The position numbers and the translations under genes are program-made. Below the pieces are notes generated by a model. The model was given only the letters and a program-made list of their open reading frames with translations. It was not told the DNA's origin and made no database searches. Of a stretch of 64,000 nt of DNA, positions 3,074 to 32,579 are shown piece by piece; position 1 is the stretch's first letter, and every line of letters starts with the position of its first letter. Location: contig OX638319.1 in assembly GCA_951812655.1 (NCBI GenBank), positions 744,001-808,000 on the forward strand, written 5' to 3'. Source of the stretch: an uncultured Candidatus Nitrosopumilus sp. (GTDB lineage: Archaea; Thermoproteota; Nitrososphaeria; Nitrososphaerales; Nitrosopumilaceae).

Positions 3074-4857
3074 TGCTTGTAATAGAAATTTCCAGATGTT
3101 TTTTGATCCTTATCCAATCTGCTCTCAAATTTGTTTACTCGTGGTCTGAGACTTTTTTCATCTCTCCTAAATGACATGTCCAGTGATTTCAAGAATCTGT
3201 TCATTGCATCTGCTTTTGGCATGGGCGATGTCCCTGTACCTGCATGTCCTGATTCTCCTTCAAAAATAACCATTGAGTCTGAAACAAGATCCATTAATTG
3301 CAAGTCATGATCAATAATGATTGCTGATTTTCCAAAAGAACGGACAAATTTTTGTAAAAATTTGGCAACAGCAATTCTATCTTCTACATCTAGAAATGCA
3401 GAAGGTTCATCTAATGCATACAAATCTACTTTTTGCAATAAACATGATGCGACGGCAACTTTTTGTAATTCTCCTCCAGAGAGATTTCTAATTGACTTGT
3501 TGTAGAGTTTTTTAATTTTTAATGGATCAAGAATCTGTTCCTCTTCCATGCTATCTTCAACTGGGCTTCCGTTTGCTTTGTCAAGGATTGAAAGTACTTC
3601 TATGTTGAGATCATTTTGAAGGTATTGTGGCTTGTATGCTATTTTGATTTTTTTATCCACATTCCCAGAGTCTGGTTTTTCAACCCCTGAGATCATTTTC
3701 ATCATGGTTGTTTTACCTAGTGCATTTGCTCCCATTATGCCTAAAACTTCTCCTTTTCTTACTTTTCCAGGCTCAATTGTAACGGAAAATGAAGAATATT
3801 TTTTTTCCAGTTTTGGATATGATACGATTTCACTACCTTCTTGAAAAATGTCTGTAGATGAAGATGATACATCAAAAGAGAATTTTTTGTCTCTAAATCT
3901 AACGTTTTCATTTGGTAAATACCCGTCGAGAAAAACATTGATTCCGATTTTTGTTGAAAGTATATTGGAAACAATTCCATATGCTGATGGTTCTCCATAC
4001 AGCACTTCTATGTAATCGCTCAGAAAATCTAATAGTGTTAGGTCGTGTTCTACTACCATCACACTCTTTCCAATTTTTGCTAGTTTTTGTATGACCCGTG
4101 CAACTCCGGTTCTTTGAAAAACATCATTGTATGATGAAGGTTCGTCAAAAAAGTAAAACTCTGTGTCTTTAGATGCGGCGGCGGCTACTGCAATTCTTTG
4201 TAGCTCCCCACCGCTTAATTCTTTCAAACTTTGTTCCATGGAATTTTCTAATCCTAATTCTCTGATTAATTCTCTTGATGTTCCTCTTTCATCGTATTTG
4301 TCTAGAAGTTCTTTACCTGTACCATCAAATGCTTGTGCAATTTGATGAACCTGTTGCGGTTTGATTGACGCGCGAATTTGTTTTTGTTCAATTTTTTCAA
4401 AGTGTTTTTTTAGCTCTGTTCCACTATAATGTTTAAAAATTTCATTCCATTCAGGAGGATCCTCATATCTCCCTAAATTGGGCTTTAAGTTTCCAGACAG
4501 GATGTTGACTACTGTACTTTTACCCATTCCGTTTCTTCCTAATAGGCCGACGACTTCCCCTTTTCTTGGAGTTGGTAACTTGTATAGTCGAAATGAATTA
4601 ACGCCATATTGATGAATTTTATCTGATGCAATTTCACTAGCTAAATTTACGATTGTTATTGCATCAAACGGGCATACTTTGACACATATCCCACATCCGT
4701 TACAAACATCCTCATCGATTTGAGCCTTTTTGGATTCTTCATTAATGGTGACACATTCTGCTCCTGATTTGTTTACTGGACAATATTTTATACATTCCAG
4801 TCCACATTTTTGTGGCTGACACAGATCTTGATCTAATACAGCTACCCTGTGTGTCAT
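3070..4857 (-). CDS. abcE1: Ribosome recycling ATPase ABCE1 (Rli1)
   Basis: A 595-residue ABCE1. The N-terminal iron-sulfur domain has eight cysteines at 13, 18, 22, 26 and 52, 55, 58, 62, enough for two 4Fe-4S clusters. The first ATPase domain has Walker A GRNGMGKS at 107-114 and signature LSGGELQRIAVA; the second has GANALGKTT and LSGGELQKVAVA. No membrane segments are present, as expected for this soluble ABC protein, which splits 70S ribosomes after termination with aRF1 or aPelota. Length and domain order are normal. It is the first gene of a two-gene operon with trm5. The promoter region faces the 5S rRNA gene on the opposite strand. Confidence 0.97.
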   Translation of the reverse strand: MTHRVAVLDQDLCQPQKCGLECIKYCPVNKSGAECVTINEESKKAQIDEDVCNGCGICVKVCPFDAITIVNLASEIASDKIHQYGVNSFRLYKLPTPRKGEVVGLLGRNGMGKSTVVNILSGNLKPNLGRYEDPPEWNEIFKHYSGTELKKHFEKIEQKQIRASIKPQQVHQIAQAFDGTGKELLDKYDERGTSRELIRELGLENSMEQSLKELSGGELQRIAVAAAASKDTEFYFFDEPSSYNDVFQRTGVARVIQKLAKIGKSVMVVEHDLTLLDFLSDYIEVLYGEPSAYGIVSNILSTKIGINVFLDGYLPNENVRFRDKKFSFDVSSSSTDIFQEGSEIVSYPKLEKKYSSFSVTIEPGKVRKGEVLGIMGANALGKTTMMKMISGVEKPDSGNVDKKIKIAYKPQYLQNDLNIEVLSILDKANGSPVEDSMEEEQILDPLKIKKLYNKSIRNLSGGELQKVAVASCLLQKVDLYALDEPSAFLDVEDRIAVAKFLQKFVRSFGKSAIIIDHDLQLMDLVSDSMVIFEGESGHAGTGTSPMPKADAMNRFLKSLDMSFRRDEKSLRPRVNKFESRLDKDQKTSGNFYYKH

Positions 4858-28074: not shown

Positions 28075-28157
28075 ATTTACGAATGCATTGAAGCTAGGAT
28101 AAAGTCGTTTGCTAAAAACTTATGAAGTATTCGGAATCTCTTTCCAAAATAGAACTT

Positions 28158-28586
28158 TTAGGCTTGAAATTTTGATTTACAATCGCTACAATAGCCAGAT
28201 AATTCAAAACTACTTTTCAGAATTAGATATTTTGATTTTCTAGCCGCTTTTACTTGAATTTCTCTTAGTGATTCCTCATCAATATCCTCTATTTTTCCAC
28301 AATTCATGCATACCAGATTGATATGTTCGTCAGTGTGGGCATCAAACCTTGCTTCTCCGTCCACGTCCATCTCATTTACTAGCTTCTTGTCTTTAAGAAG
28401 ATCAAGTGTCTTGTATACCGTTGATAGACTTACCATTGGGTATCTTTTTCTAATGACCTTGTGAATTAGTTCTGCACTTGGATGATCTTCTGTCTTAAGT
28501 AAATAATCTACTATTGCCATTCTCTGAGGTGTGATTCTAAACCCTTCTTCTCTTAACGATGAGACGATCTGTTCCATCTGCTGCAT
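28158..28586 (-). CDS. Fur/PerR-family metal-dependent regulator
   Basis: A 142-residue Fur-superfamily repressor. The winged helix carries FRITPQRMAIVDYLL and the recognition segment MVSLSTVYKTLDLL. His35, then FDAHTDEHINLVC and the two CxxC pairs (93/96 and 133/136) form the sensing and structural zinc sites. The spacing is closer to PerR than to Fur, so peroxide or Mn/Fe sensing is possible. A TATA-like ATATTAAATAG lies about 25 nt upstream. It is divergent from three microprotein genes across 94 bp with two inverted repeats, suggesting control of both sides. Confidence 0.93.
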   Translation of the reverse strand: MQQMEQIVSSLREEGFRITPQRMAIVDYLLKTEDHPSAELIHKVIRKRYPMVSLSTVYKTLDLLKDKKLVNEMDVDGEARFDAHTDEHINLVCMNCGKIEDIDEESLREIQVKAARKSKYLILKSSFELSGYCSDCKSKFQA

Positions 28587-28637
28587 GTTATATTTTCGGC
28601 ATTATACTATTTAATATCTATTCCTTATTGATAACAA

Positions 28638-28679
28638 TTCCTAATTAAGAACAACATTTAATTAGGAATAGTTCCTAAT
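28638..28679. promoter_or_regulatory. Fur/PerR-type operator region between divergent genes
   Basis: ATTAGGAATAGTTCCTAAT at 28661-28679 is a perfect 19-bp dyad (8+3+8), the size of a Fur-family box. TTTAATTA at 28657-28664, the probable TATA box of the plus-strand gene, overlaps its left edge, and the gene starts 2 bp after the dyad, so binding would block a leaderless promoter. A second imperfect dyad TTCCTAATTAAGAA (28638-28651) shares the TTCCTAAT arm and lies toward the regulator gene. Confidence 0.7.
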
Positions 28680-28680
28680 A

Positions 28681-28857
28681 ATGAATATGCAAATACAATC
28701 ATTTGAAGACAGCCAATTGGAATCAAATAAAAAAACTGTAAATGATGCAATTAGAATTTGTGTCAATTGTGGCAACATAGCAGTCAAAATACAAAACCGT
28801 GGTATATTCTGCAAGGATTGTGGCACGTTTTTTGATGTTGAGGTAAAAGATGAGTAA
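28681..28857 (+). CDS. 58-residue zinc-ribbon microprotein (Fur-linked, first of three)
   Basis: ATG at 28681. The protein has a polar, Gln/Asn-rich N-terminal half and then one zinc ribbon: ICVNCG, then FCKDCGTFF, i.e. two CxxC knuckles 18 residues apart with aromatic residues after the second, as in transcription-factor and ribosomal zinc ribbons. It starts 2 bp after a perfect 19-bp dyad and overlaps the next gene by 8 nt. No catalytic domain. I infer a nucleic-acid or protein adaptor or a metal-responsive peptide under Fur/PerR control. Confidence 0.7.
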   Translation: MNMQIQSFEDSQLESNKKTVNDAIRICVNCGNIAVKIQNRGIFCKDCGTFFDVEVKDE

Positions 28858-29023
28858 TGATCCCTGCAGAAGCATATGCCGTTACTATGATGCCCAGTCT
28901 GAACATAGAATCTTACAAAATGACATATTCAGAAAGTATTGCTCTTTATGTGATCTTGAACTGATTTCAAGATATTCTGTTTGTCCTTGCTGTCACAAAC
29001 AATTTGGAGGCATTAGAAAATAA
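28850..29023 (+). CDS. 57-residue cysteine-rich microprotein (second of three)
   Basis: ATG at 28850 overlaps the preceding gene by 8 nt; the stop TAA at 29021-29023 overlaps the next ATG by one base. It has three cysteine clusters: CRSIC near the N-terminus, CSLC in the middle and CPCC with a following His (CPCCHKQFGG). The order C-x3-C, C-x2-C, CPCC is the same as in the next protein, so the two are paralogs. Seven cysteines in 57 residues point to one or two zinc sites or to metal binding. Confidence 0.72.
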   Translation: MSNDPCRSICRYYDAQSEHRILQNDIFRKYCSLCDLELISRYSVCPCCHKQFGGIRK

Positions 29024-29223
29024 TGGGATTTGTCTGTAAAGGTGTGTGTGAGAGTGTGAAAGGCAAAAAAATACCAAATGGTTCCAGATATGAATACGGC
29101 CAAAAAAGATGCTCTATGTGCAGTATTTTCATGACTGTTTCTGGAATTCGATGTCCTTGCTGTAGTGCTCTTTTGAGAACAAAATCAAGGGGCAGAAAAC
29201 TACGTTCCTCAGAATTGGAATAA
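29023..29223 (+). CDS. 66-residue cysteine-rich microprotein (third of three)
   Basis: ATG at 29023 overlaps the upstream stop (TAATG). The cysteine order matches its neighbour: CKGVC, CSMC, then CPCCSALLR, with a basic C-terminus (KSRGRKLRSSELE) that the neighbour lacks and which could contact nucleic acid. No family recognised. Likely translated by coupling in the Fur-linked three-gene unit. The 69 nt to the next gene contain a TATA-like stretch, so the unit probably ends here. Confidence 0.78.
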   Translation: MGFVCKGVCESVKGKKIPNGSRYEYGQKRCSMCSIFMTVSGIRCPCCSALLRTKSRGRKLRSSELE

Positions 29224-29292
29224 TATTGGACAGTTCTAGATTATTTTAGCCACATTCCCTATTTTCAAAGCTCTTATTTTGGATATAATTTC

Positions 29293-31871: not shown

Positions 31872-32579
31872 TTATGATGATTTTGCTTCAGCTGCGCCTT
31901 CAGCAGGTGCTTCAGCTGCGCCTTCAGCAGGTGCTTCAGCTGCGCCTTCAGCAGGTGCTTCAGCTGCGCCTTCAGCAGGTGCTTCAGCTGCGCCTTCAGC
32001 AGGTGCTTCAGCTGCGCCTTCAGCAGGTGCTTCAGCTGCGCCTTCAGCAGGTGCTTCTACAATTACGTCCTTTTCTTTACTTTTTTCTAATAATTCTGGA
32101 ATTTTTGACTCTGGTGTAAAATGGATATTCTCTTCTTCTTCAACTTTTACTGTATATGATGGAATGTTTATTTTTCTATCTCCTATCATGATGTGGCCAT
32201 GAATAACAGCCTGCCTTGCTTGATATGGTGTTTTGAATCCTAATTTTTTTGTAACAATGCTTTGAAGTCTTCGTGAGAGCAAATCATCCGCATTCAGATT
32301 AAGTACATCGTCTAATGTTGCTTCAGAATTAACTAAACCAATTCTTGCAAGAGATTTCATCAAAATTGGTTCTTTTTCCTCTCTGATTTCTTGTCTTAAT
32401 GCCAGTAGGGATCTGGCTTGATGTCTAACCCTTGATAATTCAGTGTGTGCTTTCCATAATTCTCTCTTTGTTCTTAATCCAAATGTTCCTAGTGTCTTTA
32501 ACTCATCCATCTTTAATTCATAATTAAGAGGTCTCTTCGGCTTTTTCCAAACTCTACGTGGATATTTTGGATCTCCCAT
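31872..32579 (-). CDS. rps4: Ribosomal protein S4 (uS4) with repetitive C-terminal tail
   Basis: A 235-residue uS4. The first 170 residues are normal: [42 protein letters not shown] and the S4 RNA-binding [19 protein letters not shown]. After that comes a short charged segment and seven perfect copies of the eight-residue unit APAEGAAE, ending KSS. The tail is disordered and acidic and is encoded by exact 24-bp repeats, so its length is probably variable. It directly follows rps13, as in other archaea. Confidence 0.96.
31885..32052. repeat. Seven perfect 24-bp tandem repeats in rps4
   Basis: Seven identical units of 24 bp (168 bp) inside the 3' end of rps4. Each encodes the eight residues of the acidic Ala/Glu tail. 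No sequence difference exists between copies, which points to recent expansion by slippage or recombination. The frame is preserved because 24 is a multiple of three. Confidence 0.98.

Follow-up and report, generated by a model that had tools for sequence, protein, structure and literature searches.

The 64,000-nucleotide stretch of DNA analysed here (the window) belongs to the genome of a Nitrosopumilus-type archaeon, a single contig of 1.67 Mb. It appears to contain a self-contained, horizontally moving cassette in which a PerR-type repressor serves a single leaderless operon that encodes three cysteine-rich stress microproteins, a reading to which we give a probability of roughly 0.6. Comparison between genomes indicates that the four genes and their paired DNA switch recur in about 30 related species. 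What emerges is apparently a real, conserved and undescribed stress module, namely a Fur/PerR-controlled operon with effectors from a family that lacks a database model. The regulation of this operon is well supported by comparison, and the biochemical function of the three microproteins (p1, p2 and p3) is one that we infer. The features involved are as follows.

28158-28586, minus strand: Fur/PerR-family regulator (fur), 142 aa, PF01475, divergent to p1-p2-p3
28608-28616, minus strand: putative TATA box of fur, TATTTAATA on the plus strand, 22-30 bp before the fur ATG
28628-28644, centre 28636: box 1, TTGATAACAATTCCTAA, a weaker putative Fur-type 7-1-7 operator, 12/16 to consensus
28657-28664, plus strand: putative p1 TATA box, TTTAATTA, lying 23-30 bp upstream of the conserved ATG
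28662-28678, centre 28670: box 2 (the dyad of the first-pass annotation), TTAGGAATAGTTCCTAA, 15/16 to consensus
28681-28857 (58 aa) or 28687-28857 (56 aa, conserved ATG), plus strand: p1, zinc-ribbon microprotein, CxxCG ... CxxCG
28850-29023, plus strand: p2, cysteine-rich microprotein of 57 aa, C-x3-C ... C-x2-C ... CPCCH
29023-29223, plus strand: p3, 66 aa, CPCC microprotein family, C-x3-C ... GQKRC-x2-C ... CPCC ... basic tail

The microprotein genes

Three frames of 58, 57 and 66 residues, overlapping by 8 nt and 1 nt, had been reported in the first-pass annotation and are present in exactly that form. The order C-x3-C, C-x2-C, CPCC that was said to be common to the second and third frames is also seen, whereas the first differs in being a classical CxxCG...CxxCG ribbon. 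The start of p1 at 28681 had to be revised: the second ATG, at 28687, is the better choice and gives 56 aa, because most congeneric relatives start at the corresponding codon. Among 19 orthologues, C25, C28, C42 and C45 of p1 are invariant, as are, again in 19 orthologues, C6, C10, C31, C34, C45, C47, C48 and H49 of p2. Conserved residues other than cysteine include Y12, Y13, D14, R20, F27 and K29 in p2 and the GQKR and LRTKPR stretches in p3. All three frames are conserved across about 30 genomes, and their median dN/dS values of 0.12 (p1), 0.13 (p2) and 0.15 (p3), compared with 0.07 for fur, are rough, with synonymous sites near saturation (median pS of about 0.65), and clear in sign; they indicate that p1, p2 and p3 are real genes under purifying selection. 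Frames as short as these may be missed by standard gene calling. In one genome (G081, L092:2350-2450), an additional tiny cysteine-rich frame, MKRYNCTVCNCLIHPYHSDCGTCECKLYAEIKS, has been detected between p2 and p3.

The two CxxCG motifs of p1, which is shorter than 70 aa, are CVNCG and CKDCG, and the protein gives weak zinc-ribbon matches in Pfam; no C(P)XCG motif occurs in p2 or p3. The family databases searched returned nothing above cut-off for any of the three proteins, Pfam and NCBIfam being those concerned for p2 and p3.

The CPCC family

Over a dozen paralogues of p3 are encoded in the window genome, where one search returned 15 matches and another 16, p3 included, and an alignment with 12 of these paralogues revealed a shared C-x3-C ... 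C-x2-C ... CPCC pattern. A profile of the family matched 111 of 150 genomes of the class, with up to 23 copies per genome. Within this set of 150, the profile detected the family in every listed genome of four taxonomic families (f1, f2, f3 and f8), and it found none in f10 or in the other listed families of the class. The CPCC family is present in all sampled mesophilic ammonia-oxidising archaeal genomes. The second microprotein, p2, is a divergent member, aligned to the p3 family by hhalign with a probability of 96.4 and an E value of 1.4e-9. It has no sequence match in the PDB, and the AlphaFold2 model of p3, which is of moderate confidence (pLDDT 73), has no Foldseek match below E 0.001. 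A viral origin of p2 was rejected, no relative having been found among the viral contigs scanned, and matches in PHROGs and PADLOC were marginal only and were taken as chance. Seven cysteines occur in p2 (57 residues) and seven in p3 (66 residues), or about 11-12%; assignment to the metallothioneins, a class marked by a very high cysteine content and no folded core, was rejected in view of this percentage and of the many conserved positions other than cysteine.

A longer member of the p3 family, of about 150 aa (G000:C1:358363-358554(-), L326:4706-5179), has a second, C-terminal CxxC ... H ... C part resembling a zinc finger. It adjoins PAC4-like and UbiD genes, with NAC, PUA and Trm56 genes nearby, and a member with a similar top score is found in almost every sampled ammonia-oxidising archaeal genome.

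The regulator

The divergent gene had been named as Fur/PerR, and the protein is confirmed as a member of the Fur family by its match to PF01475 (107 bits, cut-off 23.1, E 7e-31). Among solved structures it is closest to PerR of B. subtilis (2FE3, E 3e-31) and also to that of S. pyogenes. Its named relatives come from Nitrosopumilus, Nitrosarchaeum and Nitrosomaritimum MAGs. Sequence comparison thereby places the regulator closest to PerR. The best NCBIfam model, NF052545, gives 136 bits against a PerR equivalog cut-off of 180, and the name therefore stops at "PerR-like". In 20 orthologues, the cysteine pairs of the structural zinc site (C93, C96, C133 and C136) are invariant.

The regulatory ligands of B. 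subtilis PerR are His37, Asp85, His91, His93 and Asp104 (PMC4866751). Four of the five are retained in the regulator as His35, Asp82, His88 and Asp101, which are invariant in the 20 orthologues, and the fifth, His93, is replaced by Asn90. An asparagine (N101) stands at the same place in Streptococcus PerR, where it is not a ligand and where extra N-terminal histidine ligands are used (PMC3931707); histidines of this type are absent from the regulator. It has been said that an aspartate at position 104, which has been linked to H2O2 reactivity, separates peroxide-sensing PerR from Fur (PMC4866751), and the regulator carries Asp101 where Fur proteins have a glutamate. Zur proteins are recognised by a cysteine ligand instead of Asp85 and by the lack of a His37 equivalent (PMC4866751). 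A Zur identity was rejected, with both Asp82 and His35 present and invariant in the orthologues.

Operator boxes and promoter elements

The intergenic region had been described as containing a single, perfect 19-bp dyad. This description needed correction on two points, as the dyad pairs at only 8 of 9 positions (ATTAGGAA-TAG-TTCCTAAT) and two boxes are present, centred at 28636 and 28670. Taken alone, the dyad is weak evidence because dinucleotide shuffles of the intergenic region often match it, an equally good palindrome having appeared in 992 of 5000 (about 20%), and its significance comes from conservation only. Across 31 loci, the consensus of both boxes is TTAGGAATnATTCCTAA, of the 7-1-7 form (AAT-n-ATT). 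An AAT-n-ATT core within a 7-1-7 inverted repeat is the usual form of Fur-family boxes. The two centres lie exactly 34 bp apart in 30 of the 31 loci, and box 1, the weaker of the two in the window, reaches 16/16 to consensus in some relatives. Box 2 overlaps the TATA/start region of p1, with its centre 17 bp upstream of the ATG, and in most congeneric loci the corresponding distance is 16-17 bp. The presence of two putative Fur-type 7-1-7 operators at the target promoter region, with box 2 as the promoter-proximal one, is well supported by these comparisons.

The putative TATA element of fur is conserved across 31 aligned intergenic regions and that of p1 in most loci. Their position, 22-30 bp before the start codons, suggests that the transcripts would be leaderless or nearly so.

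No site in the window genome other than box 2 comes within one mismatch of the consensus. Elsewhere in the Fur-bearing genomes, 83 box matches were counted against 2 for a reversed control. A wider Fur regulon was considered and rejected, since 27 of the 28 further matches that were examined and correctly placed in these genomes fall inside open frames of at least 90 codons (a match in L318 is a possible exception), several of them being consistent with in-frame GGA-ATn-ATT-CCT codons (Gly-Ile-Ile-Pro). No uptake gene was found under boxes among the matches examined, and a scan of the whole genus at one mismatch gave little excess over the control besides the module sites. Because the further matches examined are mostly intragenic and box 2 is unique in the window genome at one mismatch, the regulator looks dedicated to one divergent promoter region, and its regulon looks limited to the module alone.

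Linkage, distribution and mobility

Orthologues of the regulator have been detected in 20 of 95 congeneric genomes. The first-pass annotation had proposed conservation of the frames and the dyad next to Fur as a check, and the comparison bears this out: p1, p2 and p3, or recognisable remnants of them, adjoin Fur in all 20 congeneric loci, and the paired boxes occur at 30 of 31 loci. In 11 loci of other genera fur is always divergent to p1-p2-p3, two of these having an insertion (Dps). Among 400 genomes of the class, a p2 profile matched 34, which all come from one family (Nitrosopumilaceae), and linkage was inspected in a subset of the p2-bearing genomes. There are exceptions to the linkage: G063 has p2 without this Fur, G097 carries an additional Fur copy that lacks an operon, with the full cassette elsewhere in the genome, and no operon accompanies two more distant relatives of the regulator (L228 and L234) on the sequence examined. 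The additional copy in G097 (L100 / L235, G097:C4:31086-31466) is N-terminally shorter and 65% identical. As to the neighbours of the loci, DUF302 genes are recurrent among them, and in eight genomes fur is followed by a gene for a membrane-anchored protein of 105-118 aa that belongs to no Pfam family (L134:8208-8564 and seven further loci); a relative of it was recognised by eye in the G067 dps island (L369:18-293).

The window cassette sits between translin and yjeF (28080-29290), a gap that is empty and 64-74 bp long in most congeners. Other congeners hold different cargo there, such as a reductase-like frame (L203), with similar end sequences. Genomes G097 and G086 have the cassette at this same place, and G067 and G092, with a Fur close to that of the window, have it elsewhere and an empty translin-yjeF site. 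The fur and yjeF trees conflict, with the Fur clade rejected on yjeF (p-AU 1.4e-5) and the reverse rejected as well (2.9e-5), values which are optimistic because the groups were chosen after the trees had been seen. These data indicate that the module moves horizontally. In the window and seven loci of other genomes (L182, L186, L190, L191, L195, L203 and L207), the translin-yjeF gap resembles an insertion hot spot. Signs of decay include a stop codon in p2 (G067), a broken p3 (G092) and, in G018, a lost cysteine in p1 together with a truncated p3. Since fur is retained in some genomes in which p1, p2 or p3 has decayed, the cassette is accessory and dispensable, and sometimes lost. A separate frame at 31872-32579 (minus strand), uS4-like by eye, ends in a C-terminal tail (31884-32057) in which a 24-bp unit is repeated perfectly in tandem 7.2 times and encodes (EAPAEGAA)n. 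Its counterparts in L133 and L138 are shorter frames.

Association with Dps

In two Nitrosarchaeum MAGs (L232 and L236), a gene for the mini-ferritin Dps is the first behind the double box, again with 34 bp between centres, followed by p1 and other microproteins, and L232 has an additional p3-like copy between p1 and p2. The Dps protein is 157 aa long, matches PF00210 with E values of 3e-32 and 3e-29, and has Dps-type proteins as its closest PDB entries. A different layout, with neither this Fur nor these boxes nearby, is seen in G063 (L368), where the cluster reads dps-p1-COX15/CtaA-like-p3-p2, and in G067 (L369), where it reads dps-p1-COX15/CtaA-like-p3. The microproteins accompany Dps in at least two arrangements, given that the Nitrosarchaeum and G063/G067 layouts differ. 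Genome G067 contains two dps-p1-p3 stretches identical at 3474 of 3474 bases compared (C1:25012-25485 and C1:1909944-1910417; L344 and L367), which would reflect a duplication of recent date or an artefact at the assembly ends. There is no Dps match in the window genome. The idea that the boxes also control dps genes outside the module was rejected, no good box having been found near dps in Nitrosopumilus genomes.

In Streptococcus, binding of PerR to the promoter of the Dps-like gene dpr has been observed by EMSA (PMC12911349). The linkage to Dps is the best evidence on the signal, which it suggests to be peroxide and iron. A metal or peroxide signal for the unit is supported by the PerR-type ligands and by Dps standing first in the operon of the two MAGs, from which we infer it.

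Proposed mechanism and alternative explanations

In the mechanism that we favour, the metal-loaded dimeric regulator would bind the two 7-1-7 boxes, 34 bp apart. As box 2 spans the interval from the p1 TATA element to the start codon, the bound regulator would block the transcription machinery, and the repressor would be released by peroxide, through histidine oxidation at the regulatory iron site, or by metal loss. Translational coupling at the overlapping stop and start codons would then produce p1, p2 and p3 together. The first is predicted to be a zinc ribbon, and p2 and p3 to be thiol proteins that hold zinc (or another metal) and belong to a family confined to ammonia-oxidising archaea. 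All three may be effectors of the stress response in which Dps takes part, and most likely bind metal through thiols and contact a nucleic acid or protein partner. Against this explanation stand the replacement of His93 by Asn90 in the regulator, a module without peroxidase, catalase or metal transporter, a window genome with no Dps match, the dispensability of the cassette, the moderate p3 model with no significant fold match, and Haloferax microproteins that carried no zinc (PMC11241148).

In a tentative but credible alternative, the microproteins are zinc ribbons that bind nucleic acids, the ribosome or RNA polymerase and retune transcription or translation during stress, much as small haloarchaeal regulatory zinc-finger proteins do. 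The weak resemblance of p1 to Rpb12/L37a-type ribbons (E 0.03-0.3) and the basic tail of p3 are consistent with such a role, although all similarities to known ribbons are below significance. In the window genome, the almost ubiquitous member of the family has NAC, PAC4-like, PUA and Trm56 genes close by, but genomic neighbourhood is weak evidence. Gene regulation by a small protein of the zinc-finger type is reported from Halobacterium (PMC2253796).

A second and somewhat less probable reading concerns the regulator, which would sense iron or manganese sufficiency in the manner of Fur or Mur rather than peroxide, with the microproteins made under metal limitation, for instance as zinc- or thiol-based stand-ins or as metal chaperones. 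The change of the fifth PerR ligand to asparagine fits this reading, as does a window module without a peroxide-detoxifying enzyme, and the Dps and COX15-like neighbours are as much iron and heme genes as peroxide genes. It is opposed by Asp101, the residue linked to H2O2 reactivity (PMC4866751), standing where Fur has a glutamate, and by the lack of an uptake gene under the boxes among the matches examined.

It is unlikely that the microproteins buffer zinc or thiols in the manner of a metallothionein, in which case their cysteine clusters would hold zinc (or iron or copper) and release or sequester it in stress with no macromolecular partner. Co-production of three such proteins, with seven cysteines each in p2 and p3 and vicinal CPCC thiols, could serve this purpose, and iron and zinc homeostasis are linked by PerR through Dpr in Streptococcus (PMC12911349); nevertheless, a cysteine content of about 11-12% is low for a metallothionein, and the conserved residues of p2 and p3 other than cysteine point to a fold and a binding surface. 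These residues, together with the basic tail of p3, are the reason for rating binding to nucleic acid, ribosome or polymerase somewhat above metal buffering. Chance open frames beside an ordinary Fur gene, which the length of all three (under 70 aa) and their absence from family databases above cut-off might suggest, are refuted by conservation in about 30 genomes, dN/dS of 0.12-0.15 and invariant cysteines, and have practically no likelihood left.

Beyond the favoured mechanism of a dedicated PerR-type repressor, a speculative extension is that the CPCC family constitutes a novel group of microproteins, switched by redox state or metal and able to adjust transcription, translation or iron chemistry, of which the cassette would be a peroxide- or iron-controlled branch working with Dps.

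Comparison with known systems

The cassette offers a concrete candidate for a PerR-type circuit in ammonia-oxidising archaea, with regulator, putative operator and target operon all defined, and it brings out a microprotein family that occurs in every sampled mesophilic ammonia-oxidising archaeal genome and has no Pfam or NCBIfam model. In the open-licence literature, no description was found of the p3 family or of a PerR-type/Fur circuit in Nitrosopumilus or ammonia-oxidising archaea. Marine ammonia-oxidising archaea mostly lack catalase (PMC6593220).

The bacterial PerR systems, namely PerR/dpr of Streptococcus and PerR of B. subtilis, share several properties with the cassette: a Fur-family protein nearest PerR in sequence, 7-1-7 inverted-repeat boxes, four of the five ligands, the Cys4 structural zinc site and, as seen in the two Nitrosarchaeum MAGs, a Dps gene behind the double box. 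In contrast, the archaeal box is TTAGGAATnATTCCTAA, whereas the bacterial Per box is AT-rich, and the fifth ligand is an asparagine. The archaeal regulon is also apparently limited to the module, with microproteins, not enzymes, as its main targets.

Within the archaea, the Brz and Brb proteins of the bop region of Halobacterium salinarum (PMC2253796, PMC3184054) are likewise tiny, one of them being a zinc finger, and have a place in a small regulatory circuit. The likeness is one of description, and the systems differ in their signal and in that Brz is itself a regulator, while the regulator of the cassette belongs to the Fur family. The C(P)XCG zinc-finger micro-proteins of Haloferax volcanii (PMC11241148, PMC10716476) resemble the microproteins of the cassette in their size of less than 70 aa, their cysteine pairs and their predicted zinc binding, p1 being the closest in motif with its two CxxCG motifs. 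Five of 14 such proteins purified from Haloferax carried no zinc (PMC11241148), and by this precedent the cassette's microproteins may hold zinc, another metal or none. The likeness is one of motif and size; p2 and p3 have CPCC and C-x3-C instead, and the cassette stands apart from the Haloferax proteins in that three microproteins are gathered in one operon with what appears to be a dedicated PerR-type repressor.
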